The notes under the pieces were generated by a model that searched no databases, was not told the origin of the DNA, and was given only the letters and a program-made list of their open reading frames with translations. This document shows positions 1,723-33,913 of a DNA stretch of 36,801 nt, in pieces. The position numbers and the translations under genes were made by a program. Numbering within the stretch: position 1 is the first letter of the stretch; each line of letters begins with the position of its first letter. The DNA is from Phycisphaerae bacterium. Lineage in GTDB: Bacteria; Planctomycetota; Phycisphaerae; JAAYCJ01. The stretch lies in the NCBI GenBank assembly GCA_012729815.1, contig JAAYCJ010000360.1:1-36801 (forward strand). Direction: 5' to 3'.

Positions 1723-2868
1723 ATGGTCACCACTTCACGTCATCAAGCCAGATTGAAGGTCCGCGACTACCTGGAAAAGCAATTGGTCTCGCTCCGGGCC
1801 GGCGAGCCGTTGCCGCCGATACGAACTCTGATGCGGGAGAGCGGGGCCAGCCTGGCCCGCCTCAACGGAATTCTCGATGATCTGGAGGCCCAGGGCCTGA
1901 TCGAACGGCGTCCGCGGCAGGGGATTTTCAAAGCCGCCGACCTTCGCAGCGGTTCGACCCTCGAACCCTTCGTCGGCCGCTCCGGCGGGTCCGCAACGCT
2001 GACCATCGGCGTCATCCTCGACAGTTGGCCGCACGGCGTCAACAACGCCTATCTGGCTGACCTGTTCCGCTATCTCAAGAGACATCTTCGCCGATCCCCC
2101 CGGCCGTGCCGATTGGTCTACGAGTTTGTGGAGGCGTTCGGAGAGGAGGGGGGTGAAACGCCGAGACTTCTGACCTCGCCGGGGATCGACGGGGTGATCT
2201 TCATGCCGTTCACGCGAGGAGGCTTGGAGTTCCTCAACGGGTGGCGACCGGCCAGCCGACCGGTGGTCTGCTTCGGTCGCGAGCTCCGAAACGATCAGGT
2301 CCCGCAAGTCTATGTCGATCACCGCCTCGGCGGGGCCAAGGCGGCTGAGTATCTGCTTCAACTGGGTCACCGGCGGATATGCACCGTCTCATCCGCGATG
2401 TTCGAGGGCAGCCCGGACGATCTGCGGCTTCGCGGTTATCGCCAGGTGCTCGAACGATCGGGCGTGCCGATCGACCCGAATCTGACCGTCGAGGCGGAAA
2501 ACCGCTACGACCAGGTCAATCAGCGGTTGGCCCGCGTCTTCGACCGCGCATCGTCGCCGACCGCGGTGTTCGTGACCGGCGGTGTGCTGATGCCGGCCGT
2601 CCTGCACGCACTCGCGTCCCTCGGCAAGACGGTCCCCGCCGACCTCTCGCTGCTCTCGTACGACGACACCGAGGAGAGCCGGACCTACCACCCGCCGATT
2701 ACCGTGGTCCGTCAGCCGTTGGATCAGGCGATGGGCGTGTTGCTGAATGAAATGCTCAACTGGATCGAGGGCGGACACGACGGCCGAAGGCGGGTAATGC
2801 TGCCGCCGGAACTCGTGGTGCGCGAGTCATGCGCGCCCGTGCGGGAAACTGACAATGCTCCGAATTAA
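1723..2868 (+). CDS. GntR-type HTH / LacI-type sensor transcriptional regulator (module 1)
   Basis: A 381-residue chimeric regulator of the same architecture as Bacillus AraR. Residues about 8-70 form a GntR-like winged helix-turn-helix ([40 protein letters not shown]). Residues about 84-375 resemble the periplasmic-binding-like sensor of LacI/GalR proteins ([53 protein letters not shown]). Such proteins usually repress sugar-use genes and are released by a sugar ligand, which cannot be named here. The DNA-recognition helix is degenerate compared with classical GntR ([15 protein letters not shown]). A consensus promoter lies directly upstream. The stop overlaps the pseudopilin start by 14 bases, so the two genes are translationally coupled. 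Its likely targets are this operon and itself. Confidence 0.88.
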
Positions 2869-3565
2869 CGGTTGCCGAAGACTCCGCGGATTCACGCTGA
2901 TCGAACTGCTGGTCGTCGTCGCGATCATCGCGGTCCTGGTGGCCATGCTGCTTCCGGCCCTACAGGAGGCCCGCCGCCAGGCCCAGGCCACCCAGTGCGC
3001 AGCTAACTGGCGCCAGGTGGGAATGTACCTGTCCATGTACGAGAGTGACGAAGGCGGCTATCCCCAGTGCCGCTACCCGGAATACCGCTCGGTCTATTAC
3101 GGCGGATACAAGGGCTTCGGACTCCTTAAGCCATACGTGGCAGATCCCAGTTGGGTCGACGTGCTCTCGAACGTCAAAGACAGTTGCCTCAAGCGGGGAC
3201 CGTTCTCCGACCCGACCGGCAAGCCGGACTTCGGCTTCGGTGACCTGATCAACGTCCTGTACGTCCTGCCGTTCACCTCGCCCGGTGCTCAACCGTCCTG
3301 GCGGGGCGGCGTGCCGCCGTTCCCGTGGCCGACCCTCGGCTATCGCGACCGACCCAGCACCACCGCATCGAGCGTCTGCGACCTGCGAACCAGTGCAAAT
3401 CCTTTCTCAGCCGTTCCCCTGATCCCTTACGCCCACAGCGGTGCCGGGGTCAATATCCTTTTCGTCGACGGCCACGTCCGCTGGAAACCGACCGACCTGT
3501 TCAAACACGTCGGCTTCTCGGTGCCCGATCCGTGGGTCAAGTACCAGTTGGCGTTGAATGACTGA
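2855..3565 (+). CDS. prepilin-type pseudopilin with H-X-DG C-terminus (module 1)
   Basis: A 236-residue pseudopilin. A short basic leader ([12 protein letters not shown]) ends in Gly and is followed by the class III signal sequence [18 protein letters not shown], with Glu at +5; a prepilin peptidase would cut after Gly12. The hydrophobic helix runs on into [12 protein letters not shown], typical of planctomycete and lentisphaeral prepilin-like proteins. Near the C-terminus is [17 protein letters not shown], the H-X9-DG signature with one additional residue between His and Asp. Such proteins are thought to be processed and held at the inner membrane; their partners are mostly unknown. The start overlaps the regulator stop by 14 bases, and the secreted-protein gene follows 49 bases later on the same strand. 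Confidence 0.85.
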
Positions 3566-6999: not shown

Positions 7000-7878
7000 A
7001 TGGCCCGGCGCATCATCGACGTCCACAACCATCCCAATTGGCACGGACACACCATCGACCGTCTCGTCGAGAACATGGATCAATACGGCATCGAAAAGAC
7101 CTGGCTCCTCTCGTGGGAAATCCCCGACGACGAGTACAACGTCGAGCCCGGATACCACGAGGTCATGGACCCGCGCGGACGAGGCGCCGAGTTCTGGATG
7201 ATCGTCGAAGGCCTCCAGAAGTACCCAAACCGCTTCATCGGAGGCTGGGCTCCCGACCCCCGCAGCCGATCCGCCCGAGCCCGCCTCCAGGCCGCCGTCA
7301 ACCTCTACGGCATCAAGGTCTACGGCGAACTCAAGCTGCGAATGCGCTACGACAACCCCGACGCCATCGCCATGTACCGCTTCTGCGGCGGCCTCAAGCT
7401 CCCGGTCCTCTTCCACCTGGAACTGCCGCGGTGCGCCATGGACCGCCTCTGCGAAGACCATCGCCAGTGGCCCGCCTGGTACGGCGGTGACATCACCGTG
7501 GTCGGCAACATGTGCCGCCAGTGTCCCGAAACGATCTTCATCGGCCACGGACCCGGCTTCTGGCGCGAAATCTCAGCCGACGCCGAAGCCGACCAGAGCA
7601 GCTATCCGTCCGGCCCCGTCCAAGCCCACGGCCGCATGACCGAACTGCTCCGCCGCCATCCGAACCTCTACGCCGATCTCTCCGCCGGCAGCGGCGCCAA
7701 CTCTCTGGAACGCGACCTCGACCACGGCCGGCAATTCGTCCTCGAATTCCAGGACCGAATCCTCTTTGGCCGCGATTACTTCGACCGCCGCCAACTCGAC
7801 GTCCTTGAAAAACTCGACCTGCCCGACCCGGTGATGGACAAGGTCCTCTGCCAGAACGCCTTGCGGCTCATCGGTTAA
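7000..7878 (+). CDS. amidohydrolase-2 family metal-dependent hydrolase
   Basis: A 292-residue TIM-barrel hydrolase of the amidohydrolase superfamily, cytoplasmic, without a signal peptide. The ATG at 7000 is preferred over an in-frame GTG at 6973 because AAGGAGAAG (6987-6995) precedes it at ideal distance. Metal-binding residues are visible in order: HxH in VHNH (H9, H11), a Lys or strand-end position in GIKVYGE, His in VLFHLELP, His in FIGHGPGFW, and the conserved late Asp in ILFGRDYFD (D259). The family covers decarboxylases and lactonases (ACMSD-like), and the substrate cannot be told. It is transcribed from its own promoter and seems monocistronic. The N-terminal half of the fusion protein at 29445-31757 belongs to the same superfamily but lacks the late Asp. 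Confidence 0.85.
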   Translation: MARRIIDVHNHPNWHGHTIDRLVENMDQYGIEKTWLLSWEIPDDEYNVEPGYHEVMDPRGRGAEFWMIVEGLQKYPNRFIGGWAPDPRSRSARARLQAAVNLYGIKVYGELKLRMRYDNPDAIAMYRFCGGLKLPVLFHLELPRCAMDRLCEDHRQWPAWYGGDITVVGNMCRQCPETIFIGHGPGFWREISADAEADQSSYPSGPVQAHGRMTELLRRHPNLYADLSAGSGANSLERDLDHGRQFVLEFQDRILFGRDYFDRRQLDVLEKLDLPDPVMDKVLCQNALRLIG

Positions 7879-9928: not shown

Positions 9929-10128
9929 GACAAGAGAAGGGGGATCGGACTGGAGTTGAGGTAGCCGCCGGGTTAAAATGAGACGTAGCCGGGGGTTCGG
10001 CAATCCGCCCTGGGTGGCCCTCGGTCAAGATACGCCCGGATTTGTGGCGCTGGGCAGATCGTCGGTTGAGGACGGTACGACCCTTCTGCCGGTCCTACAA
10101 ACGCAAGGGGCAAACTCGGGGGTTGGAC

Positions 10129-13100
10129 ATGGCCGCGGAAGTCGCGAACAAACCGTCAGGTGCCGGTCGGACCGGACCAACCCTCGGCGGCATGCCGGCT
10201 CTGATATGGCTCCTGCCTCTGGTAGTCTTCGTCCTGCTGCTGATCCGCAGCCTCTCGAACTACCGCAGCAGCCAGAATTCAGCCGCCGAACTGACCCGCG
10301 ACTATACGAGCATGCTGGCTGAGCAGACCGCGCGGCACTGGCAGGCCGTCCTGGAACAACAGGCGGGCGATCTGGCTCTCTTGGCCGATCTGCTCCAGAA
10401 CCCCTCTGACGATGCGCGCCGTCTGGTGGCCGAAGAGGCCAAGGCTATCGTGGCCCGCGACCCGCCTACGTTTGAGATGATCGGATTCACGCCCGCCGCC
10501 CAGCTGGCATCGCCTTCCCATGGCCTCCTGGCTAGCCGGGGAACGCTGCAGTTCGCGGAGACCGAAGACTGCCGCGATGTCCACGATCGCCTGAGCCAAA
10601 CCGGCAAACCCTGGGCGTGCCGCTCAGCCGAAGCAGTCGGCGGACGCCCGGGAATCACCATTTGGTATCCGGTGTTCTTCCGCGACGGCGGCTCGCAGCG
10701 CTACGCCGGGGCGATCACCGGATCCTTCCTGGCCGACCTGCTGATCGGCCAGACCGTCAGGCCTCTCGGTCCGTCGGATCCCTGGTTGACCCTCCGGCTG
10801 GATGAACGGGACGTCTACAGCACTAAGGACAAAGGCGTCCGTGTGCCCCAGCCGCTGGCCGAGCTTAAAGCGACTACCACCGTGACCGCTCTGGACCGGC
10901 ACTGGCAGGTCCAAGCCATGCCCCGGCCCGGCGGGAAGCTCGGCCGTCTGGCTCAGGACAACGCCCGGCGGCTGACCGCCAACGTCGTCCTGTCGCTCCT
11001 GATCGTCGGACTGATCGCCTTCTCCTTTGTGGCCATCGGAAAAGCCCGTCGAGGAGAGGTGGCCCTCAGAGAATCGGAACGGCGATACCGGAGTATCTTC
11101 GACAACGCCGCCGACGCGGTTCTGCTGCACGATTTCCAGGGCCGCATCCTCGACGCCAATCCGGTCGCTTGTCGGCGCCTCAACTACACGCTCCAGGAGC
11201 TTCTCGGCAAGACGATCCTGGAGGTCGACTCACCTGAATCCGCCCGGCAATTCCTGCGGGATATCGAGCGGTTGCGCCGCGAGGGAAGCATCCTCTTCGA
11301 AGGCGAACATCTGACCCGCAACGGCCGGCGGGTGCCGGTCGAAATCAATGCCCGGGTGATCGACTATCAGGGAACGCCGACCGTCCTGAGCATCATTCGG
11401 GACATCAGCGAACGCAGACACGCGGAACGCGCCCTGCGCGAAAGCGAAACGCGGTTCCGCGAGCTCTTCGGCAGCATCCGCAGCGGCGTGGCGGTCTTCG
11501 AAGCCGTGGACGAGGGTGAGGACTTCCTGATCCGCGATCTTAACCCCGCCGCTGAGCAGATCGAGGGCCGGTCCAAAGACCAGATCCTGGGCCGGCGGGT
11601 GACCGAGGCGTTTCCCGCCATTCGGCACATCGGCCTGTTGGAGGTCTTTCGACAGGTCTGGCGCACCGGAACTGCTGCGCACCACCCAGCCGCCTACTAT
11701 GACGACGGACGGATACGCGGCTGGCGAGAAAACTACGTCTACAAGCTGCCGTCCGGCGAGGTTGTGGCGGTCTACGACGACGTGACTGAGCAGAAGCAGG
11801 CCGAGGAACGGCTGCGGCTGACGCAGTTCTCGGTGGACCGGGCCGAGATATCCGTCTTCTGGATCGATAAGGATGCTCAGTTCCTCTATGTCAACCAGGC
11901 CGCTTGCCGCTCCCTCGGCTATACGCGCGAGGAACTCGAGTCGATGGGCGTCTATGATATAGACCCCGAGTTTCCTCGTGAGACGTGGTCGGACCACTGG
12001 GAAAGCGTCAACCAAGCGGGTTCCCGCACGTTTGAGACCGTCCATCAGGCCCGGGACGGGCGGATCTTTCCCGTTGAGATCACCGCCAACTACCTGGAGT
12101 TCCGTGGCCGGTCGTGCCACTGTGTCTTCGCCCGCGACATCACCGAACGCAAACGCGTCGAAGAGGCTCTGCGCCAAAGCGAGGAACGCTTCCGCCGGGC
12201 CGTCACCGACGTCCCGTTGCCCGTCATCATCCACGCCGAGGACGGCGAAATCCTCCAGGTCAACCGGGCCTGGATCGAAATCTCCGGCTATTCGTCCGAG
12301 GACATCCCGACCGTCGCCGACTGGACGGCCAAGGCCTACGGCGGCCAGCGCGAAATGGTCCGGGCCGCCATCGATCATCTCTACCAGCTCGACCGGCGCG
12401 AGGCCCAAGACGAATTCGAAATCACGACCCGCAGCGGCGAGAAGCGAATCTGGGATTTCAGCTCCGCCCCGCTGGGCCGTCTGCCCGACGGCCGACGCAC
12501 CGTCATCAGCATGGCCATGGACGTCACCGAACGCCGCCGCGCCGAAGATGAGTTGGCCAGCCGAAAGAAGTTCATCGAAACCGTCCTCGAAAATCTGCCC
12601 ATCGGGGTCATGGTGATCTGCGCCGAAACCGGCCCCATCCTGTACCTCAACGCCGCGTTCGTGCAGATGCACGGCTGGCCTCGCGAAGCGCTCCCCGACC
12701 GGGAACAACTGCTCGAGTGCCTCTTCCCCGATCCGGAGGCCCGCAGACAGACGCGGGAAAGAATGGATCAAATGATCCTTGCCGTCCCGCGTAAACCGGT
12801 CGATTGGGGCGACACCTGCGTCACCACCAGCACCGGTGAGAAGAGAATTATCACCGTGACCGGCATTCCTCTGCCGGAACGAGACACGTGGGTCTTCGCC
12901 ACGTTGGACGTGACCGAGGAAAGACGCGCCGAACAGGCCCTGCGGGAAAGCGAAGGCAAGCTCCGGAGCATCTTCCTCGCCGCTCCGACCGGCATCGGCG
13001 TCGTCCGCCGACGCGTCATTGTTCAAGTGAATGAACGGCTGTGCCAAATGCTCGGCTATGCCGGCGACGAACTCGTCGGAAACAACTCGCGCATGCTCTA

Positions 13101-14538
13101 CCCGACCGACCAGGAGTTCGAACGCGTCGGGCAGGAAAAGTACCGCCAGATCAGCGAAACCGGTGTCGGGACCGTCGAGACCCAGTGGGTGCGAAAGGAC
13201 GGTCGATTGATCGACGTCCTGCTCAGCTCCGCCAAAATGGACCCAGCCGACCCCGACACCCCCGTCAGCTTCACCGCCCTCGACATCACCGAGCGCAAGC
13301 GGGCCGAGGCCCAACTTCACCGCCACATCCAGGAACTCCTCCTGCTCAGCAGCATCACCCGCCAGGCCACCGTCGCCAGATCCATGAACGAAGTCGCCGA
13401 CGTCGTCCTGCGCGAAATCGTGAACGCGACCGAAGCCGAGGTGGGAATCCTCTATCTGCGGGACAATGATATCCTCCAGCTTCAACGGGTCTACCCTCAG
13501 GACGCCCGGTACGCCCAGGTCGGCGCCGGCCTCCACAAGGTCGGCCAGTGCCTCTGTGGACAGGCCGCTGAGGGCAAGGCCGTCTACTCCACCGACATTC
13601 ACGGCGACCCGCGGTGCGTGTTGACCGAATGCAAGCGGGCGGGCCTGCGGTCCTTCGCCGCGCTGCCCCTGGCCAAGGAGGGGCGGATCATCGGCGTCCT
13701 GGGCTTCGCCTCATTCCAGGAACATGATTTCTCCCAGCGTGCGGCGTTTCTCGAAACCGTGGCCAACCAGATCGCCATCATCATCCAGAACGTGCTGCTC
13801 CACGAGCGGCTCGCCAGTTACGCCCAGGAACTGGAACAGCGCGTCCCCGAGCGGACGGCCAAGCTCCAGGAGGCCAACCAGGAACTCGAAGCCTTCGCCT
13901 ACTCCGTCAGCCACGACCTGCGGGCCCCCCTCCGCAGCATCGTCGGGTTCAGCAGTATCGTGATGAACGAAGCCGCGCAAAAACTCGACTCCCGCGACCG
14001 CGAAAACCTCCAGCGGGTGGTCGCCGCCAGCCGACATATGAACGAGTTGATCGAGGGCATGCTCCAACTCTCCCGAATGAGCAGGGCCGCCATGCACCGC
14101 CGCCAGGTCGATCTCAGCGAGATGGCCCGCGGTATCGCCAAGGAACTCCGCGAACGCAATCCCGATCGCAACGTCGAATTCAGCATTCAGCCGGACGTCA
14201 CCGTCACCGGCGACGCCACCCTCCTCCAGGTCGTCATGGAAAACCTCCTCGAAAACGCCTGGAAGTTCACCTCCAAACGCGACGCCGCCCGCATCGAATT
14301 CGGTGCCGAATCCTCGAACGGCGAGCAGGTCTGCCACGTCCGCGACAACGGCGCCGGCTTCGACATGGAGTACGTCGGCAAGCTGTTCATCCCGTTCAGC
14401 CGCCTGCACACCGCCGGCGAATTCGAGGGCACCGGTATCGGCCTCGCCACCGTCCGCCGTGTCATCCAACGCCACGGCGGGCGAATCTGGGCCGAAGGCC
14501 GACCGGACCAGGGAGCCACCTTCTACTTCACCCTCTGA
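10129..14538 (+). CDS. membrane sensor histidine kinase, six PAS domains plus GAF
   Basis: A 1469-residue sensor kinase. The ATG at 10129 after a G-run is preferred to a TTG at 10042. Residues about 23-42 and 285-305 are membrane helices that enclose an extracytoplasmic sensor of about 240 residues (CHASE/Cache-like position, family not recognised). Six PAS repeats follow, starting near residues 321, 441, 568, 686, 814 and 943, most ending in a D[IV][ST]ER-type PAC tail. A GAF domain lies at about 1069-1230 with a Cys-rich CLCGQAAEG segment typical of ligand-binding GAF. Then comes a HisKA with YSVSHDLRAPLR (phospho-acceptor H1262), and a HATPase with N-box NLLENAWKF, G1 DNGAGFD and G2 GTGIGLATV. 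No response regulator is encoded nearby. The last 16 bases overlap tail-to-tail with the flippase gene. The kinase core aligns without gaps to the other two kinases in the window. Confidence 0.9.
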   Translation: MAAEVANKPSGAGRTGPTLGGMPALIWLLPLVVFVLLLIRSLSNYRSSQNSAAELTRDYTSMLAEQTARHWQAVLEQQAGDLALLADLLQNPSDDARRLVAEEAKAIVARDPPTFEMIGFTPAAQLASPSHGLLASRGTLQFAETEDCRDVHDRLSQTGKPWACRSAEAVGGRPGITIWYPVFFRDGGSQRYAGAITGSFLADLLIGQTVRPLGPSDPWLTLRLDERDVYSTKDKGVRVPQPLAELKATTTVTALDRHWQVQAMPRPGGKLGRLAQDNARRLTANVVLSLLIVGLIAFSFVAIGKARRGEVALRESERRYRSIFDNAADAVLLHDFQGRILDANPVACRRLNYTLQELLGKTILEVDSPESARQFLRDIERLRREGSILFEGEHLTRNGRRVPVEINARVIDYQGTPTVLSIIRDISERRHAERALRESETRFRELFGSIRSGVAVFEAVDEGEDFLIRDLNPAAEQIEGRSKDQILGRRVTEAFPAIRHIGLLEVFRQVWRTGTAAHHPAAYYDDGRIRGWRENYVYKLPSGEVVAVYDDVTEQKQAEERLRLTQFSVDRAEISVFWIDKDAQFLYVNQAACRSLGYTREELESMGVYDIDPEFPRETWSDHWESVNQAGSRTFETVHQARDGRIFPVEITANYLEFRGRSCHCVFARDITERKRVEEALRQSEERFRRAVTDVPLPVIIHAEDGEILQVNRAWIEISGYSSEDIPTVADWTAKAYGGQREMVRAAIDHLYQLDRREAQDEFEITTRSGEKRIWDFSSAPLGRLPDGRRTVISMAMDVTERRRAEDELASRKKFIETVLENLPIGVMVICAETGPILYLNAAFVQMHGWPREALPDREQLLECLFPDPEARRQTRERMDQMILAVPRKPVDWGDTCVTTSTGEKRIITVTGIPLPERDTWVFATLDVTEERRAEQALRESEGKLRSIFLAAPTGIGVVRRRVIVQVNERLCQMLGYAGDELVGNNSRMLYPTDQEFERVGQEKYRQISETGVGTVETQWVRKDGRLIDVLLSSAKMDPADPDTPVSFTALDITERKRAEAQLHRHIQELLLLSSITRQATVARSMNEVADVVLREIVNATEAEVGILYLRDNDILQLQRVYPQDARYAQVGAGLHKVGQCLCGQAAEGKAVYSTDIHGDPRCVLTECKRAGLRSFAALPLAKEGRIIGVLGFASFQEHDFSQRAAFLETVANQIAIIIQNVLLHERLASYAQELEQRVPERTAKLQEANQELEAFAYSVSHDLRAPLRSIVGFSSIVMNEAAQKLDSRDRENLQRVVAASRHMNELIEGMLQLSRMSRAAMHRRQVDLSEMARGIAKELRERNPDRNVEFSIQPDVTVTGDATLLQVVMENLLENAWKFTSKRDAARIEFGAESSNGEQVCHVRDNGAGFDMEYVGKLFIPFSRLHTAGEFEGTGIGLATVRRVIQRHGGRIWAEGRPDQGATFYFTL

Positions 14539-16095: not shown

Positions 16096-20434
<4,339 letters not shown>

Positions 20435-20560
20435 TACCGCTATCCCCGTTCGCAGCGATCCTGACAAAACGCCAAAGCCCGCTTAAGGCGCCCGCGACCG
20501 CCGCGCTGGACTATTGAAATCATATCCCTCACCCTCCCGGATTTCCGCGTAAGCGCCATC

Positions 20561-22432
20561 CTATAGTGTGAAGTGGAACGTGGCGCCTGCGCCCACCCGC
20601 CCTTCGGCCCGGATCGATCCGCCGTGCCGCCGGATGATCCGCTGCACCGTGGCCAGCCCAACCCCAGTGCCCTCGAACTCCGAGACGCTGTGAAGCCGCT
20701 CGAACGGTTTGAACAGCTTGTTCGAGAACGCCATGTCGAACCCCGCCCCGTTGTCCCGGACAAAAAAACTCCGACCGTTCGATGAGGCCTCCAGGCCGAA
20801 CTCGATCCTCGCCTTCTCCGTCTTGGCGGTGAACTTCCACGCATTGCCCAGCAGGTTCTCCAGTACGATCCTCAGCAGGTGCGAATCCCCCTCCACCGTC
20901 AGGCCCGGCTCGATCACAAACTCAGCCTCCCGCTCCGGTTGGCCGGCCAGAAAGCCTTCCGCGATCGCCTGGGCCATCGCGCTCAAATCCACCTGCTCCT
21001 GCTCCATCGCCATCCGCGTCACCCTCGCCAGCTCCAGCAGGTCGTCGATCAACTGCGCCATGTACTGGCTGTTGCGACGCATCCGTTCCAGATAGCCTCT
21101 CCCCTCTTCGTCAAACGCACCCCCGTACTCGTCGAGCAGGATCTTGCTGAACCCGTCGATGATCCGCAGAGGAGCCCGCAGGTCGTGCGACACCGAGTAC
21201 GAAAATGACTCCAGCTCCCGGTTCGCCTCGCGAAGCTCCGCCGTCCGGGCCGCCACCCGCCGCTCCAGCTCCTCGTTGAACTGCCGAACCTGCTCCTCCC
21301 GCTCCTTGATCTCGGTCAAATCCGTCATGATCAGCCCCATCCCGTCGCCGACCTTGAACGCCTTGACCGCCATCCGACGCTCGCCCGCCGCCGACGCCAC
21401 CCGCACGTCCTCCGCATAAAACGGCTGACCCGTCCTCACCACGTTCGCGTACAGGCTGTAACGCCCGCTGGTTCTGAGTTCCGGAACCACCTCGGAAAAA
21501 TGCCGCCCCACCAGATCCTCCCGCGAACGCCCCGACAGCCGCAACCCCGCCTCGTTGACCTCCACGATGTTCAACTCCGAGTCGAACAGGGCGAACACGT
21601 CCGTCGCCGAAGCCATGAAACCCGCCAGTCGTTCCTCGCTCTCCCGCAGCGTCGCCTCCACCCGCTCCCGCTGTCCGATATCCGCCCCCAATTGCGCCAC
21701 CGTCCCGGCCAACTTCGCCGACATCGAATTGATGCCTTCCTGCAGCATGCCGATCTCGTCCCGCGAATTGACCCGGCAGATCGCCGCTCCTAATTCCCCG
21801 CCCTCCACCCGCTTAACGCACGCCAGAGTGTCCCCGATCCGCCGCGTCACCACCCGCCGCATCAGCAGAACCTCCACCGCCGACGTCGCCAGCACGCAAA
21901 TCGCCGTCCCCGCCCAGAACAGCAGCGAAATCATCCGTTTCTTCGCCTGAGCCTGGGCCAGGCTTGACTTGATGTACAGGAACCCGATCAGCCGCCCGTC
22001 CTCCAGCCGCAGCGGAGTCAGACTGACCAGCACCTCCGCCTCGCCGTCCCCGCTCGGAACCACCTGCGGGGCGAACACGTTCGCGCTCAGCATGTCCGGC
22101 CACTCCACCGCCGCGACTTCCGAAATCCGCCGGCCGATATGCGCGGGATTCAGCGAGTAGTACACCTGCTGGTTCATCCCGATCACCATCGCCTCCATCA
22201 GCTCCCCGCCCACCAGATCCTCCATGACCTGCTCGCTGTTGACCGACTCGTAGCTCAGCACCCCCTGCATCATCAACTCGCCCGGAATCCGAATCCGCGA
22301 CACCGTCCGCCGATCCACCTCGTCGCTGAACCGCTGAATGTACCAGTACCCCATCCCCAGCAGCGCGATCAGCTCAACGCTGACGATGATAAAACCGATC
22401 TTGAAAATCAGACTATCGCTCAGCCGTCGCAT
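20561..22432 (-). CDS. transmembrane sensor histidine kinase (HAMP-PAS), paired with a binding protein
   Basis: A 623-residue kinase. Membrane helices at about 8-31 and 168-190 enclose a periplasmic sensor of about 135 residues (VLSYESVNSEQVMEDLVGG...VVPSGDGEAEVLVSLTPLRLEDGRLIGFLYI, resembling a Cache-like fold). HAMP follows at about 191-245 (RRVVTRRIGDTLACVKRVEGGELG...DEIGMLQEGINSM), a PAS at about 265-385, a coiled linker, HisKA with H416 in YSVSHDLRAPLR, and HATPase with NLLGNAWKF, DNGAGFD and GTGVGLATV. Its start lies only 9 bases after the stop of the solute-binding protein gene, and the ribosome binding site AGGGCGAG overlaps that stop, so the two are made together. The binding protein probably presents a ligand, likely a sugar, to this sensor. 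The output regulator is not in the window. Confidence 0.9.
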   Translation of the reverse strand: MRRLSDSLIFKIGFIIVSVELIALLGMGYWYIQRFSDEVDRRTVSRIRIPGELMMQGVLSYESVNSEQVMEDLVGGELMEAMVIGMNQQVYYSLNPAHIGRRISEVAAVEWPDMLSANVFAPQVVPSGDGEAEVLVSLTPLRLEDGRLIGFLYIKSSLAQAQAKKRMISLLFWAGTAICVLATSAVEVLLMRRVVTRRIGDTLACVKRVEGGELGAAICRVNSRDEIGMLQEGINSMSAKLAGTVAQLGADIGQRERVEATLRESEERLAGFMASATDVFALFDSELNIVEVNEAGLRLSGRSREDLVGRHFSEVVPELRTSGRYSLYANVVRTGQPFYAEDVRVASAAGERRMAVKAFKVGDGMGLIMTDLTEIKEREEQVRQFNEELERRVAARTAELREANRELESFSYSVSHDLRAPLRIIDGFSKILLDEYGGAFDEEGRGYLERMRRNSQYMAQLIDDLLELARVTRMAMEQEQVDLSAMAQAIAEGFLAGQPEREAEFVIEPGLTVEGDSHLLRIVLENLLGNAWKFTAKTEKARIEFGLEASSNGRSFFVRDNGAGFDMAFSNKLFKPFERLHSVSEFEGTGVGLATVQRIIRRHGGSIRAEGRVGAGATFHFTL

Positions 22433-28387: not shown

Positions 28388-28449
28388 CTTCTTCACGCAT
28401 GTCGCCAAGACTATCCGCCATCGCCCCGTGCGACACGCAAAGGAAGAAC

Positions 28450-29301
28450 ATGAAAATCACCTCCGACTGGCACATCCACACCCGAAACTCCTGCGACGAC
28501 GCCTGCCTCGCCGTCTCAACCCTCCTGGCCAGAACCGCCCAGCTCGGCATCACAGACTTCGGCATCACCGATCACCTCCACACCCCGTTCAACTGGCCCG
28601 ACATCGAAGCCTCGCGCCGCGAATTCCTGGCCAACCCGCAATCCCCGCGCTTCCACTTCGGCATCGAAGTCTCCTGCGTCTCACAATGGGAAATCGACCA
28701 GGTCGCCGCCGGCCGCCACGACCAGCCGACCTACGGCATCCGCCAGGGCGGACCGCCCGAAGCGCCTCTCGCCATCGCCCTCACCCCCGACCGGATCGCC
28801 GCCGCCGGAATCGAGTACGTCATCGGCGGAACCCACTGGCCCATGTACGTCCCCTACGAACGAGACGCCGTCATCCGCGACTTCCACCGCCAGAACATGT
28901 TCCTCGCCACCCACCCCCTGGTCACCATCGTCGCCCATCCCTGGTGGTGGCACAACCACTGGCAGGACCCCGACGGCCTCTACCGCACCGAACCCTGGCT
29001 CGACGACTTCGGCAAAATCCCGCAATCCATCCACGACGAGTTCATCGCCGCCGTCCTCCAGCACGGCAAGGTCGTCGAAATCAACGTCGAAGGCATGCTC
29101 CTCAACCGCACCTACGAGGACCGCTTCAAATGCCGATACCTCGACTACCTCGCCCAGCTCAACGACCGTCAAGTGCCCCTGAGCCTCGGTTCCGATTGCC
29201 ACGACGCCGCCTACGCCATCGACTTCCACTCCGTCTCCGCCATGCTCGACTCAATCGGCGTCGCCGACCAGGACCTCTGGACGCTCCCGCCCCGTCCCTG
29301 A
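28450..29301 (+). CDS. PHP-domain phosphoesterase (histidinol-phosphatase-like)
   Basis: A 283-residue metal-dependent hydrolase of the PHP family (polymerase and histidinol phosphatase), which removes phosphate from small molecules or acts as a nuclease. The ATG follows AGGAAG at 28441-28446. Metal ligands appear in order: HxH (DWHIHTRNSCDD, H8 and H10), D41-H42 in GITDH, Glu in FGIEVS, His in VIGGTHWP, His in TIVAHPWWW, Glu in VVEINVEG, and D and H in LGSDCHD. This full set indicates an active three-metal centre. It lies 62 bases after treZ and is probably part of the same transcript. A histidinol-phosphatase role is possible, but no histidine genes adjoin, and a phosphosugar substrate is a fair alternative given the neighbours. 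Confidence 0.87.
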   Translation: MKITSDWHIHTRNSCDDACLAVSTLLARTAQLGITDFGITDHLHTPFNWPDIEASRREFLANPQSPRFHFGIEVSCVSQWEIDQVAAGRHDQPTYGIRQGGPPEAPLAIALTPDRIAAAGIEYVIGGTHWPMYVPYERDAVIRDFHRQNMFLATHPLVTIVAHPWWWHNHWQDPDGLYRTEPWLDDFGKIPQSIHDEFIAAVLQHGKVVEINVEGMLLNRTYEDRFKCRYLDYLAQLNDRQVPLSLGSDCHDAAYAIDFHSVSAMLDSIGVADQDLWTLPPRP

Positions 29302-29368
29302 TCCCCGATGCTCCATGCCCAGCCTCCGGTTCCCCCGGAAAAACCGCGACTTTTCTCCCGTCCCACGG

Positions 29369-29386
29369 TATCATCTGTCATGACAG
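29369..29386 (+). promoter_or_regulatory. -10 box and perfect palindrome before the fusion gene
   Basis: TATCAT (29369-29374) is a -10-like box with only a weak -35 upstream (GCGACT, 29346-29351). It is directly followed by the perfect 12-base palindrome CTGTCATGACAG (29375-29386). The palindrome covers the expected start of transcription, 59 bases before the ATG at 29445, where a repressor would block initiation. TGT-N4-ACA symmetry is of the kind bound by GntR-family dimers. The rest of the 143-base gap shows nothing notable. Confidence 0.4.
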
Positions 29387-29444
29387 TTGGCCCAAAACGT
29401 CCCCGCCCAAACCGTGGCGGTACCATTGATTTCGAGGATCTCAA

Positions 29445-31757
29445 ATGGCTGCGACAGGCAATCTATCCAAAACCGATCGGGCAATGCTCGCCGAACTCAA
29501 AACCTTCCTGCCCCCGCAGGTCTACGACGTCCACGCCCACCTCTGCCACGCCCTGGCCCCCGACACCCATCAGCACCTCGCTGACCGCCTCAGCGGCGAA
29601 CTCACAGCCAAACTCTGGCACGCCGAAGTCTCCCGCCAACTCGGCAACGCCCAACTGGTAGGGGGGCTCCTCTCCGTCCTGCCTGGTCCCGACGGCGACG
29701 TCGAAGCGGCCAACGACTTCCTCCTCCAGCAACTCACGCGATTCCACGACTGCCGCGCCCTCGTCCTCATCTCGCGACACTCCGACCGCGCCCGCGTCGC
29801 CGAACTCCTCGAAACGCCCGGCGTCGCCGGCTTCAAACCCTGCCTCAACCCGCTCGACGCCGACGCTCGGCCCGCCCGCACCATCGCCGACCTTCTGCCC
29901 GACTGGGCCTGGAAAATCGCCGACGAGCAGGCCCTCGTCATCCTCCTGCACCTCTTCAAACGATTTGCCCCCATCACGCCCGCCGCCCGACAGGCCATCC
30001 GAAACCGCTGCCTCAAGCACACCGGCGCACGCCTCATCCTGCCCCACGGCGCCATCGGCTTCCACGACCCCTACGCCCTCGACGACCTCGCCGACTTCCG
30101 CAGCCTGCCCAACCTCTACGTCGAAACCTCCACCGTCTGTGACGCCGCCGTCCTCGTCTCCCTCCTCAACGCCTTCGGACCGAGACGTATCCTCTGGGCC
30201 AGCGGCTTTCCCGCCGCCGCCATCCGCGGAACCTCCGTCGCCGTCGGAAACGCCGCCATCTGCCTCGACGCCAAAGCCCTCGGAGCCGATCCGGCCGAAC
30301 CCGACCAGCAGCCGCCACTCCTCGGCCTTGAAGCCCTCCGCGCCCTACGCAAAGCCGCCGACCTCTTCGGACTCACCCAAGCCGACCTGACCGATATCTT
30401 CTCCGACAACGCACTGCGCCTCCTCGGCCTCAAGACCGAACCAGCCGGCCAGACCCAATCCCTCTACCGATACGCCAAAACCCGCATCCCCTCCGGCACC
30501 CAGCTCCTCTCCAAGCGTCCCGAAATGTTCGCGCCCAACCAGTGGCCCGCCTACTTCCGCGAGGCCCGCGGTTGTGAAACCTGGGACCTCGACGGCCGAC
30601 ATTACTACGATCTGACCACCAGCGGCATCGGCGCCTGCCTTCTCGGATTCCGCGATCCCGACGTCACCCGCGCCGTCCAACGACGCATCAGCCTCGGTTC
30701 CATGTGTACCCTCAATCCGCCCGAAGAGGTCGAACTCGCCGACCGCCTCTGCCAGATCCACCCGTGGGCACAGCAAGCCCGATTCGCCCGCAGCGGCGGC
30801 GAAACCGCCGTCGTCGCCGTCCGGATCGCCCGCGCCACCACCAGACGCTCCCTCGTCGCCATCTGTGGCTACCACGGCTGGCACGACTGGTATCTCGCCG
30901 CCAACCTCGGCGAAAGCGACAGCCTCGACGGTCACCTCCTGCCCGGCCTCGACCCCCTCGGCGTCCCGCGCGAACTCCGCAACACCACCCTCACCTTCCG
31001 CTTCAACAACCGCGACGAATTCCAGAAGGTCATCGACCGGCACGGCGACCAACTCGCCGCCGTCGTCATGGAGCCCATGCGATACCACATGCCCGAACCC
31101 GGGTTCATGGAGTTCGTCAAAACCAGAACCAACGCCGCCGGCGCGCTCCTGATCTTCGATGAGATCACCATCGGCTGGCGATTCACCTTCGGCGGCTCGC
31201 ACCTGAAGCTCGGCGTCAACCCCGACATCGCCATCTTCGCCAAGGCCCTCGGCAACGGCCATCCCATCGGTGCCATCATCGGAACCCGCGCCGCCATGGA
31301 AGGCGCCAACGCCTCCTTCATCAGCAGCACCTACTGGACCGAAAGCGTCGGACCCGTCGCCGCCCTCGCCACCATCCAGAAACTCCAGCAACTCGACGCG
31401 CCCACCCACGTCGCCCGAATCGGCGAGATGATCGCCGACCTCTGGCGACAGCACGCCAAGACTCATAGCCTGCCCGTCACCGTCGCCGACGGATTCCCCT
31501 GTCTCGCCCACTTCCAGTTCGACCACCCGCTCGCACAGGAACTCCGAACCCTCTACACCCAGCTCATGCTCGAAAAAGGATTCCTCGCCAACCTCGGCGT
31601 CTACCCCACCATGGCCCACAACGACGAAATCGTCGCCCGCTTCGGCTGCGCCATAGACGAAGTCTTCGGCGAAATCGCAGCCGCCCTCGACGCCGGCGAC
31701 GTCAAAGAACGCCTCAATGGCCCAACCGCCCACTCCGGCTTCCGCCGACTCAACTGA
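29445..31757 (+). CDS. fusion of amidohydrolase-like domain and class III aminotransferase
   Basis: A 770-residue two-domain protein. The ATG follows GAGGA (29434-29438). Residues 1 to about 335 form an amidohydrolase-2-like barrel: HxH in VYDVHAHL (H30, H32), Lys in GFKPCLNP, His in ILLHLFKRF, His in LILPHGAIGF. The late metal-binding Asp of the family motif (FGSDFP) is replaced by Gly in WASGFP (G254), so activity is doubtful. Residues about 345-770 are a PLP-dependent class III aminotransferase, closest in look to glutamate-1-semialdehyde aminomutase: GCETWDLDGRHYYDLTTSGIGACLLGF, SGGETAVVAVRIAR, YHGWHDW, Asp572 in LLIFDEIT and the PLP lysine K600 in IFAKALGNGHPIGA. A haem-pathway role is unlikely because no hem genes adjoin; amino-sugar or amino-acid metabolism is more likely. 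The frame is continuous through the junction. Confidence 0.85.
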   Translation: MAATGNLSKTDRAMLAELKTFLPPQVYDVHAHLCHALAPDTHQHLADRLSGELTAKLWHAEVSRQLGNAQLVGGLLSVLPGPDGDVEAANDFLLQQLTRFHDCRALVLISRHSDRARVAELLETPGVAGFKPCLNPLDADARPARTIADLLPDWAWKIADEQALVILLHLFKRFAPITPAARQAIRNRCLKHTGARLILPHGAIGFHDPYALDDLADFRSLPNLYVETSTVCDAAVLVSLLNAFGPRRILWASGFPAAAIRGTSVAVGNAAICLDAKALGADPAEPDQQPPLLGLEALRALRKAADLFGLTQADLTDIFSDNALRLLGLKTEPAGQTQSLYRYAKTRIPSGTQLLSKRPEMFAPNQWPAYFREARGCETWDLDGRHYYDLTTSGIGACLLGFRDPDVTRAVQRRISLGSMCTLNPPEEVELADRLCQIHPWAQQARFARSGGETAVVAVRIARATTRRSLVAICGYHGWHDWYLAANLGESDSLDGHLLPGLDPLGVPRELRNTTLTFRFNNRDEFQKVIDRHGDQLAAVVMEPMRYHMPEPGFMEFVKTRTNAAGALLIFDEITIGWRFTFGGSHLKLGVNPDIAIFAKALGNGHPIGAIIGTRAAMEGANASFISSTYWTESVGPVAALATIQKLQQLDAPTHVARIGEMIADLWRQHAKTHSLPVTVADGFPCLAHFQFDHPLAQELRTLYTQLMLEKGFLANLGVYPTMAHNDEIVARFGCAIDEVFGEIAAALDAGDVKERLNGPTAHSGFRRLN

Positions 31758-32046: not shown

Positions 32047-33156
32047 GTGACTACTGAACTTCCCAAAGTCGGCAAGACGGTTGGCATCCGCCACATGGTC
32101 CTCAGGCAGTTGCGTTCCGGTGACTATGCCCGCGGCGGCCGCCTCCCCTCGGAGCGGGCGCTGGCCGACAGGCTCGGCGTCAGCTACATGACCGTTCGCA
32201 AAGCAATCACCCAACTCGTCGACGAGGGGTATCTTGTGCGGCGGGTTGGGCAGGGAACGTTCGTCCGCCGCGATCTCTCCGAAGAACGCATGCAGAAGCA
32301 GGCGGCTCTCCTGGCGCCCGCGTGGCTCGACACCGCCCTGATCGGATTCGCCATGCACATGTTCGAACTCGCCGAGGCCCGTGGCTGGCAGCCGCGGCTT
32401 TACCACTACCGTTCCTGGAACGAGCGGCTGGTCCATGAAGTCATCGACCACTGCGATGCCCTCATGGTCGTGCCTTCCGGGCAGCGCCTCAACGACGAGG
32501 TCGCCAGTGTCTTTCGAGCCGGCCGCAAACCCGTCGTCTTCATCGGCGAGTCCATGCTCCCCCTCGGATTCGACTCCGTGGTCGGACGCCCGGACCGCGA
32601 GGTGGACGCCGCGGTTGACCATCTTGTGCAACTCGGCCACCGGCGGATCGCCCTGGCTTGGCAGACCGACTCCGCGGGCGACTACGTTCCCGCAGCCACC
32701 GGATTGGCCATCGATCGGTGGAAGAAACGTGTCCAACCGCTGATCGCCCCCGATCCGATCGATGATCTGGCCATGTTCGCGGACGTCCCGCGATTCCAGT
32801 GGCCGCAACAGGCCATCTATGACCGAATCGTTAGCCGGTACCGGCAGGGCGAGACCTTTTCCGCCATCATCTGCCCGCTCTGCTGGTTCTGGGCCGCTCA
32901 AGCCGCGGTCTGCGATCTGGGATTGGCCGTCCCCGATGACGTCTCCATCGTGGCCATCGGCGACTGGCACGAAGGACGATTCTTCCGACCCAAGCCCACC
33001 GTGGTCTTCGTCTCCGAGCAGGAGCATATCCGCGCCGCATGGGAACTCATCGACGCGCGAACGAGCGAGCCCAACCGACCAGCCGTACAGGCCGTCGTTG
33101 AGCCAGGGCTGATCCCAGGCCGCACCACCGCCCCAGCCCCCGAAACCAGGGCATAG
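32047..33156 (+). CDS. GntR-type HTH / LacI-type sensor transcriptional regulator (module 2)
   Basis: A 369-residue regulator with the same architecture as the module 1 regulator. The GTG start is supported by AAGGAA six bases upstream. Residues about 10-75 are a well-preserved GntR winged helix ([52 protein letters not shown]), closer to consensus than in regulator 1. Residues about 95-350 resemble the LacI/GalR sensor ([56 protein letters not shown]), but the domain is shorter and has lost some typical strands. Proteins of this build sense sugars or related metabolites. The pseudopilin gene starts 10 bases after its stop, so the two are co-transcribed. Likely autoregulated through the AT-rich upstream region. 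Confidence 0.88.
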
Positions 33157-33166
33157 GAGTAAACCG

Positions 33167-33913
33167 ATGTCACCTCCCAACTTCCATCCGGCGACGCGGC
33201 GAACCCCCAACGCGTCCTTCACCCTGATCGAACTCCTCGTCGTCGTCGCCATCATCGCCGTCCTGGTGGCCCTGCTGCTCCCGGCCCTCTCAGCCGCCCG
33301 CGACCAGGGCCGGACCCTTCAATGCCAAACTCTCCTTCGCAACATCGGTGCCGCCATGGTCGCCTACGCCAACGATCACCGCGACGAACTCATGCCGTGG
33401 GTCCAGGGCTCAGCCGTGGACGGCCGCGGCTGGAACCCCGGCGTCTGGTCCGGCGTGCTCGTCGGCGGATGGAACCGCGTCATCGACGGGACAACCACGA
33501 TTGGCTTTTCCGGACCCAACTACATCGGCCTCACGCCCTATCAAACCAATCCCTATCGCTGCCCAAAGGACATGCCCATCCTCGTCGGCGATGACGTCGA
33601 CCTGACCAGCAGCTTCGTCTACAACGACCAGGCGCCCTGGACCTACTCGCGCCAGCCCACCCGCAACATCACACGCTTCGACCGGCCGTCGGCCTTCGTC
33701 CTCATACCCGAGTGGTGGGGGGCCGACTGGAGCGCCGGCCTTGGATACACCATATTGCGCTACTGGGACGCCGACGGATGGAACTGGTACACCGGAAAAA
33801 CCCTCGGGTCGCACCACGGACGCGGGGCCAATGTACTCTTCGGCGATTTCCACGTCGGCCTCCTCGACAGTGACCGCTCCAACGATCCCGCCGTCGCCGA
33901 CTGGGGCTGGTAA
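33167..33913 (+). CDS. prepilin-type pseudopilin with H-X9-D motif (module 2)
   Basis: A 248-residue pseudopilin, start ATG after TAGGAGT (33154-33160). The leader [17 protein letters not shown] is basic, and the hydrophobic segment [18 protein letters not shown] is identical to that of the module 1 protein, with Glu at +5. The residue before Phe is Ser, not the Gly normally required by prepilin peptidase. After [18 protein letters not shown] the proteins diverge. The C-terminal motif is [17 protein letters not shown], matching H-X9-D but with Phe in place of the usual Gly. It lies between regulator 2 and a large secreted protein, as in module 1. It should be an inner-membrane protein with its globular part in the periplasm. 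Confidence 0.85.

Follow-up and report, generated by a model that had tools for sequence, protein, structure and literature searches.

A probable pseudoenzyme barrel in a Phycisphaerae copy of a widespread amidohydrolase-aminotransferase fusion

The ATCase of P. aeruginosa requires an inactive dihydroorotase (pDHO) for both its activity and its assembly, and this pDHO has a homologue in an inactive domain of Ura2 from yeast (PMC7053772). The barrel considered here is predicted to share its fold with solved amidohydrolase-2 decarboxylases, lactonases and hydrolases, namely LigY (5vn5), 2,6-dihydroxybenzoate decarboxylase (2dvt), a COG3618 protein (4do7) and 2-pyrone-4,6-dicarboxylate hydrolase (4d8l), but is only 14-17% identical to them and lacks the aspartate of strand β-8. 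The aminotransferase to which it is joined has its closest counterparts, by both sequence and fold, in glutamate-1-semialdehyde aminomutase (GSAM), PctV and related transaminases. A literature search returned no paper on the fusion of these two domains and no characterised member of the family. The copy described below lies in a contig of a Phycisphaerae bacterium, of which a stretch of 36,801 nucleotides is referred to as the window.

The fusion gene occupies positions 29445..31757 of the forward strand as one uninterrupted frame of 770 codons, with no internal stop. An earlier sequence-only reading had recognised in it an amidohydrolase-2-like barrel followed by a class III aminotransferase, and the Pfam search bears this out: Amidohydro_2 (PF04909) matches residues 90-329 with 51.0 bits against a cut-off of 26.4, and Aminotran_3 (PF00202) matches residues 368-672 with 130.2 bits against a cut-off of 30.5. 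The degenerate TIM-barrel half extends over residues 12-330 (29478..30434, forward strand), and the conserved aminotransferase half over residues 338-770 (30456..31754, forward strand). Between codons 281 and 380 the sole in-frame ATG, GTG or TTG is that of M361, which already lies within the aminotransferase; the latter must therefore be translated through the barrel.

The gene is preceded by one for a PHP-domain-like protein at about 28450-29301 and followed by a GntR-type regulator at 32047-33156, and no obvious pathway partner was seen among its neighbours in the window. The PHP-domain-like protein is read in a frame that differs from the listed ORF at 28428-29429, and its match falls below the Pfam cut-off. 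The window has two copies of a gene pair in which a prepilin-like DUF1559-type protein comes immediately after a GntR/periplasmic-binding-protein-type regulator (1723-2868 with 2855-3565, and 32047-33156 with 33167-33913). Also clustered in the window, over about 12 kb, are three histidine kinases (10042-14538, 18128-20467 and 20561-22432), of which two carry several PAS domains.

The sequence-only reading implied that the fusion itself was notable, but it is neither new nor rare. A scan with one representative genome for each species recovered about 30 full-length fusions, from Armatimonadota, Lentisphaerota, Hydrogenedentota, Bacteroidota, Spirochaetota, Bacillota, Verrucomicrobiota, Acidobacteriota and Planctomycetota, and searches of the window's own phylum and class added further ones, including L125 and L126, which are 56-57% identical to the window protein. 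The resulting alignment comprises 50 other long-frame fusions and the window copy, 51 in all, with L014 clipped by a contig end. In the trees described below, named Planctomycetaceae are interspersed with rows from the window's own phylum, as would be expected if that phylum is Planctomycetota. The intact fusions (for example L125, L126, L006, L017 and L035) match the window protein in domain content and order and are of similar length, and in the rows compared their aminotransferase halves are 49-72% identical to that of the window; unlike the window copy, all of the other fusions keep D254 and nearly all other conserved barrel residues. What is unusual is hence the degenerate barrel of the window copy, which is known from a single lineage and a single sequence. 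No closer sister of the gene was found in the order (three genomes, the other two of which lack the gene) or in the family of G613, and plasmids yielded no full-length match.

The two halves are also encountered as separate neighbouring genes. They are 15 bases apart in L031 and overlap by 8 bases in L027, whereas the barrel gene is adjacent and divergent in L045, and in L036 it is encoded on the opposite strand some 2 kb downstream. A different amidohydrolase subfamily is joined to a class III aminotransferase in L139 (1429-3702), which is 27% identical overall to the window protein and apparently represents an independent second fusion. Together, the widespread fusion, the adjacent split pairs and this second fusion suggest a functional link between the two activities, perhaps within one pathway, across the family. 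The proposal that the two halves catalyse sequential reactions is thus plausible for the family at large, but probably does not extend to the window copy. Close relatives consisting of the aminotransferase only also exist, so this half can stand alone. Two other aminotransferase relatives are fused to different partners, judged by eye to be a cytidylyltransferase (L131, a 711-residue frame) and a Gfo/Idh oxidoreductase (L138, an 804-residue frame).

The aminotransferase half of the window copy has changed at only 2 of 116 near-invariant positions. D572 (31158..31160, forward strand) and K600 (31242..31244, forward strand), which by comparison with fold type I enzymes we take to be the aspartate facing the PLP ring nitrogen and the lysine forming the Schiff base with PLP, were correctly numbered in the sequence-only reading and are invariant in 51/51 fusions. 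The protein probably functions as a transaminase, to judge from its conserved residues. The nearest named families do not supply a specific name: the half scores 173.7 bits against the HemL cut-off of 527.3, and 205 bits against the PRK06209 cut-off of 486, so that, close as these groups are in sequence and fold, both equivalog thresholds are missed and an annotation as glutamate-1-semialdehyde aminomutase was rejected.

An attempt to name the substrate from gene neighbours likewise failed. The aminotransferase-only relatives lie in clusters of the nonulosonic-acid type, with cytidylyltransferase, NeuB, Gfo/Idh and aldo/keto reductase genes. The neighbours of the fusions are mixed and include BNR sialidase-like, Gfo/Idh, SDR, MFS, SSF, DHDPS, HpcH/HpaI, MTTB, URO-D and GH4 proteins. 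L125 and L126, the closest fusions, adjoin genes for an MTTB-type methyltransferase, a URO-D protein and a sodium:solute symporter in the regions L140 and L141; the domains around L125 were checked in L140, its larger region. A substrate related to sugar acids would be our guess.

The barrel half presents a very different picture. It retains the HxH motif (H30, A31 and H32; 29532..29540, forward strand), whose two histidines are invariant in 51/51 fusions, as well as D28, the invariant K131 at the end of strand β-4 (29835..29837, forward strand), the β-5 histidine H169 (29949..29951, forward strand) and the β-6 histidine H201 (30045..30047, forward strand). The motif histidines expected of a catalytic amidohydrolase-2 domain are thus all present, but the β-8 aspartate, which serves as metal ligand or general base, is replaced by G254 (codon GGC in the WASGFP motif; 30204..30206, forward strand). 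In the solved amidohydrolases 4dlf and 3cjp this column corresponds to the GSDWP and GTDMP motifs, and it carries Asp in 50/50 other fusions and in 14/14 stand-alone relatives, including L145 and L146 from the same genome. The glycine, which the sequence-only reading had also numbered correctly and whose conservation had been offered as a point to survey, is thus, among these sequences, specific to the window copy. The comparator originally chosen, a stand-alone amidohydrolase of the window (6973/7000-7878), does have the cited D259, counting from the ATG at 7000, but belongs to another amidohydrolase-2 subfamily, and the appropriate reference is provided by the fusions of other genomes.

Nor is the glycine the key change, since it is one of 17 losses among 50 near-invariant barrel positions, where no other fusion has lost more than 6. 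The full set is P111R, Y133C, H134L, E153D, V171F, N181A, P193T, A200P, R204I, D227E, A230T, E233D, G252A, D254G, F271A, W273C and S297A. Those on the catalytic face include Y133C and H134L, at neighbours of the retained K131, D254G, W273C and R204I, the last at a position that is Arg in all 50 other fusions and in the 14 stand-alone relatives. Losses were not significantly enriched on the catalytic face (11/24 against 6/25 elsewhere; Fisher p 0.14).

The disparity between the halves is equally evident in their rates of change. Relative to its nearest fusion, L125, the window copy is 36% identical in the barrel and 72% in the aminotransferase, while the corresponding values for the intact pair L125-L006 are 54% and 67%. 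In the barrel tree the window's terminal branch has a length of 1.3 against a median of 0.29, and it lies inside an 18-row clade composed entirely of fusions (support 98/94), together with L006, L008, L015, L125 and L126, although the exact place of so long a branch is uncertain by the tree program's own warning. In the aminotransferase tree the window branch is 0.36 against a median of 0.49; its nearest relatives are L125, L126, L015, L008 and L006, within a set of 24 rows (17 fusions, 6 solo and 1 split) with an SH-aLRT of 99. Both halves therefore group with other fusions, and replacement of the original domain by a foreign barrel was rejected, because the long barrel branch sits within the fusion clade beside the aminotransferase's own relatives. 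On the evidence of these trees, the barrel is a domain that decayed in place.

These observations are best accounted for if the barrel is a pseudoenzyme, and we regard it as probable that its ancestral activity has been lost while it stays on as a folded structural or assembly partner of a working transaminase. The ancestor would have been the widespread two-enzyme fusion of an N-terminal amidohydrolase-2 barrel with a C-terminal GSAM-like class III aminotransferase, both intact. In the window lineage the barrel would then have lost its activity along with the β-8 aspartate and several of its active-site neighbours, with the aminotransferase remaining under strong constraint. The barrel would have persisted as a folded N-terminal domain, probably in a structural or assembly role and possibly as a binding domain.

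It might be argued instead that the barrel is a functionless passenger in decay. Placed N-terminal to an aminotransferase that lacks its own start codon between codon 281 and M361, it would tolerate missense changes, and only stops and frameshifts would be selected against. The ability of close relatives of the aminotransferase to exist alone favours such a view, and so does the pattern of retention. Where the four nearest fusions share a barrel residue, the window copy retains it in 66, 65, 47 and 64% of cases over four conservation classes, whereas in the top class four control fusions retain 33-35 of 35 positions and the window's own aminotransferase 84/85 (99%); with retention flat over the classes, ancestral conservation no longer predicts what the barrel keeps. 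However, at the first and second codon positions the barrel is 0.55 and 0.63 identical to that of L125, far above the chance values of 0.29 and 0.25, and only the third is saturated, at 0.46 against a chance value of 0.42. Since silent sites are saturated and the first two positions are not, the barrel must have been under selection for a large part of its history. Its predicted fold also appears intact. AlphaFold2, one of the checks that had been proposed, gives two well-predicted domains for the whole protein (pLDDT 85, pTM 0.85) and a barrel for the N-terminal half alone (pLDDT 87, pTM 0.89), which Foldseek matches to amidohydrolase-2 structures with E-values of about 1e-9 to 1e-11 and query TM-scores of 0.55-0.62; as the models draw on intact relatives in the alignment, they constitute no more than moderate evidence of the fold. 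The barrel thus looks like a maintained folded domain, relaxed yet still constrained, and we consider its being a mere passenger rather unlikely.

Another possibility is that the barrel has become a regulatory or ligand-sensing domain that uses its surviving histidine-rich site to control or assemble the transaminase; it would then be a pseudoenzyme resembling pDHO, but within an unrelated pair of enzymes. The conversion of the barrel into a binding domain had been raised in the sequence-only reading, and in its general form it comes near to the reading preferred here, given the many near-invariant residues that are gone and the fold that is apparently kept. A specific ligand-binding role would go further, and we hold this version to be unlikely.

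A further alternative is that the barrel was repurposed for new catalysis or binding at a metal site formed by H30, H32, H169, H201 and K131, without the β-8 aspartate. As these residues are kept, the barrel could still bind metal, and their survival alongside 17 other near-invariant changes is suggestive; yet at 66% retention the chance of keeping all six residues, D28 included, is about 8%, which makes the signal weak. The loss of the aspartate does not by itself prove inactivity, because Asn takes this position in 6uvz, a solved amidohydrolase-2 protein, but in the window copy R204, Y133, H134 and W273 have gone too. E227, at the end of β-7, was considered as an alternative acidic ligand and rejected: it stands in place of a conserved Asp, and L127, L146, L151 and L154 likewise have Glu there and still keep D254, so it is not a new ligand. 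Repurposing of this kind strikes us as quite improbable. Finally, it is hardly credible that sequencing or assembly error mimics degeneration in an intact gene, for even though the source assembly consists of 367 contigs, base errors cannot produce 17 separate changes in an uninterrupted frame with an ordinary codon-position GC pattern and a protein branch of 1.3.

Seen as a probable pseudoenzyme attached to a functional transaminase, the window copy amounts to a natural experiment that separates the two activities of the fusion, and through it the non-catalytic support of a transaminase by a barrel might be probed, in a family that spans many phyla.

A parallel among known systems is that of pDHO and Ura2, which we draw strictly as an analogy. 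Those proteins are defined by dihydroorotase homology and an ATCase partner, whereas the present protein combines Amidohydro_2 with an aminotransferase: the amidohydrolase family and the partner enzyme are both different, and in P. aeruginosa the inactive barrel is a separate subunit. The likeness lies in the arrangement itself, with a barrel of the amidohydrolase superfamily, inactive in pDHO and Ura2 and probably so here, being retained together with a working partner enzyme.
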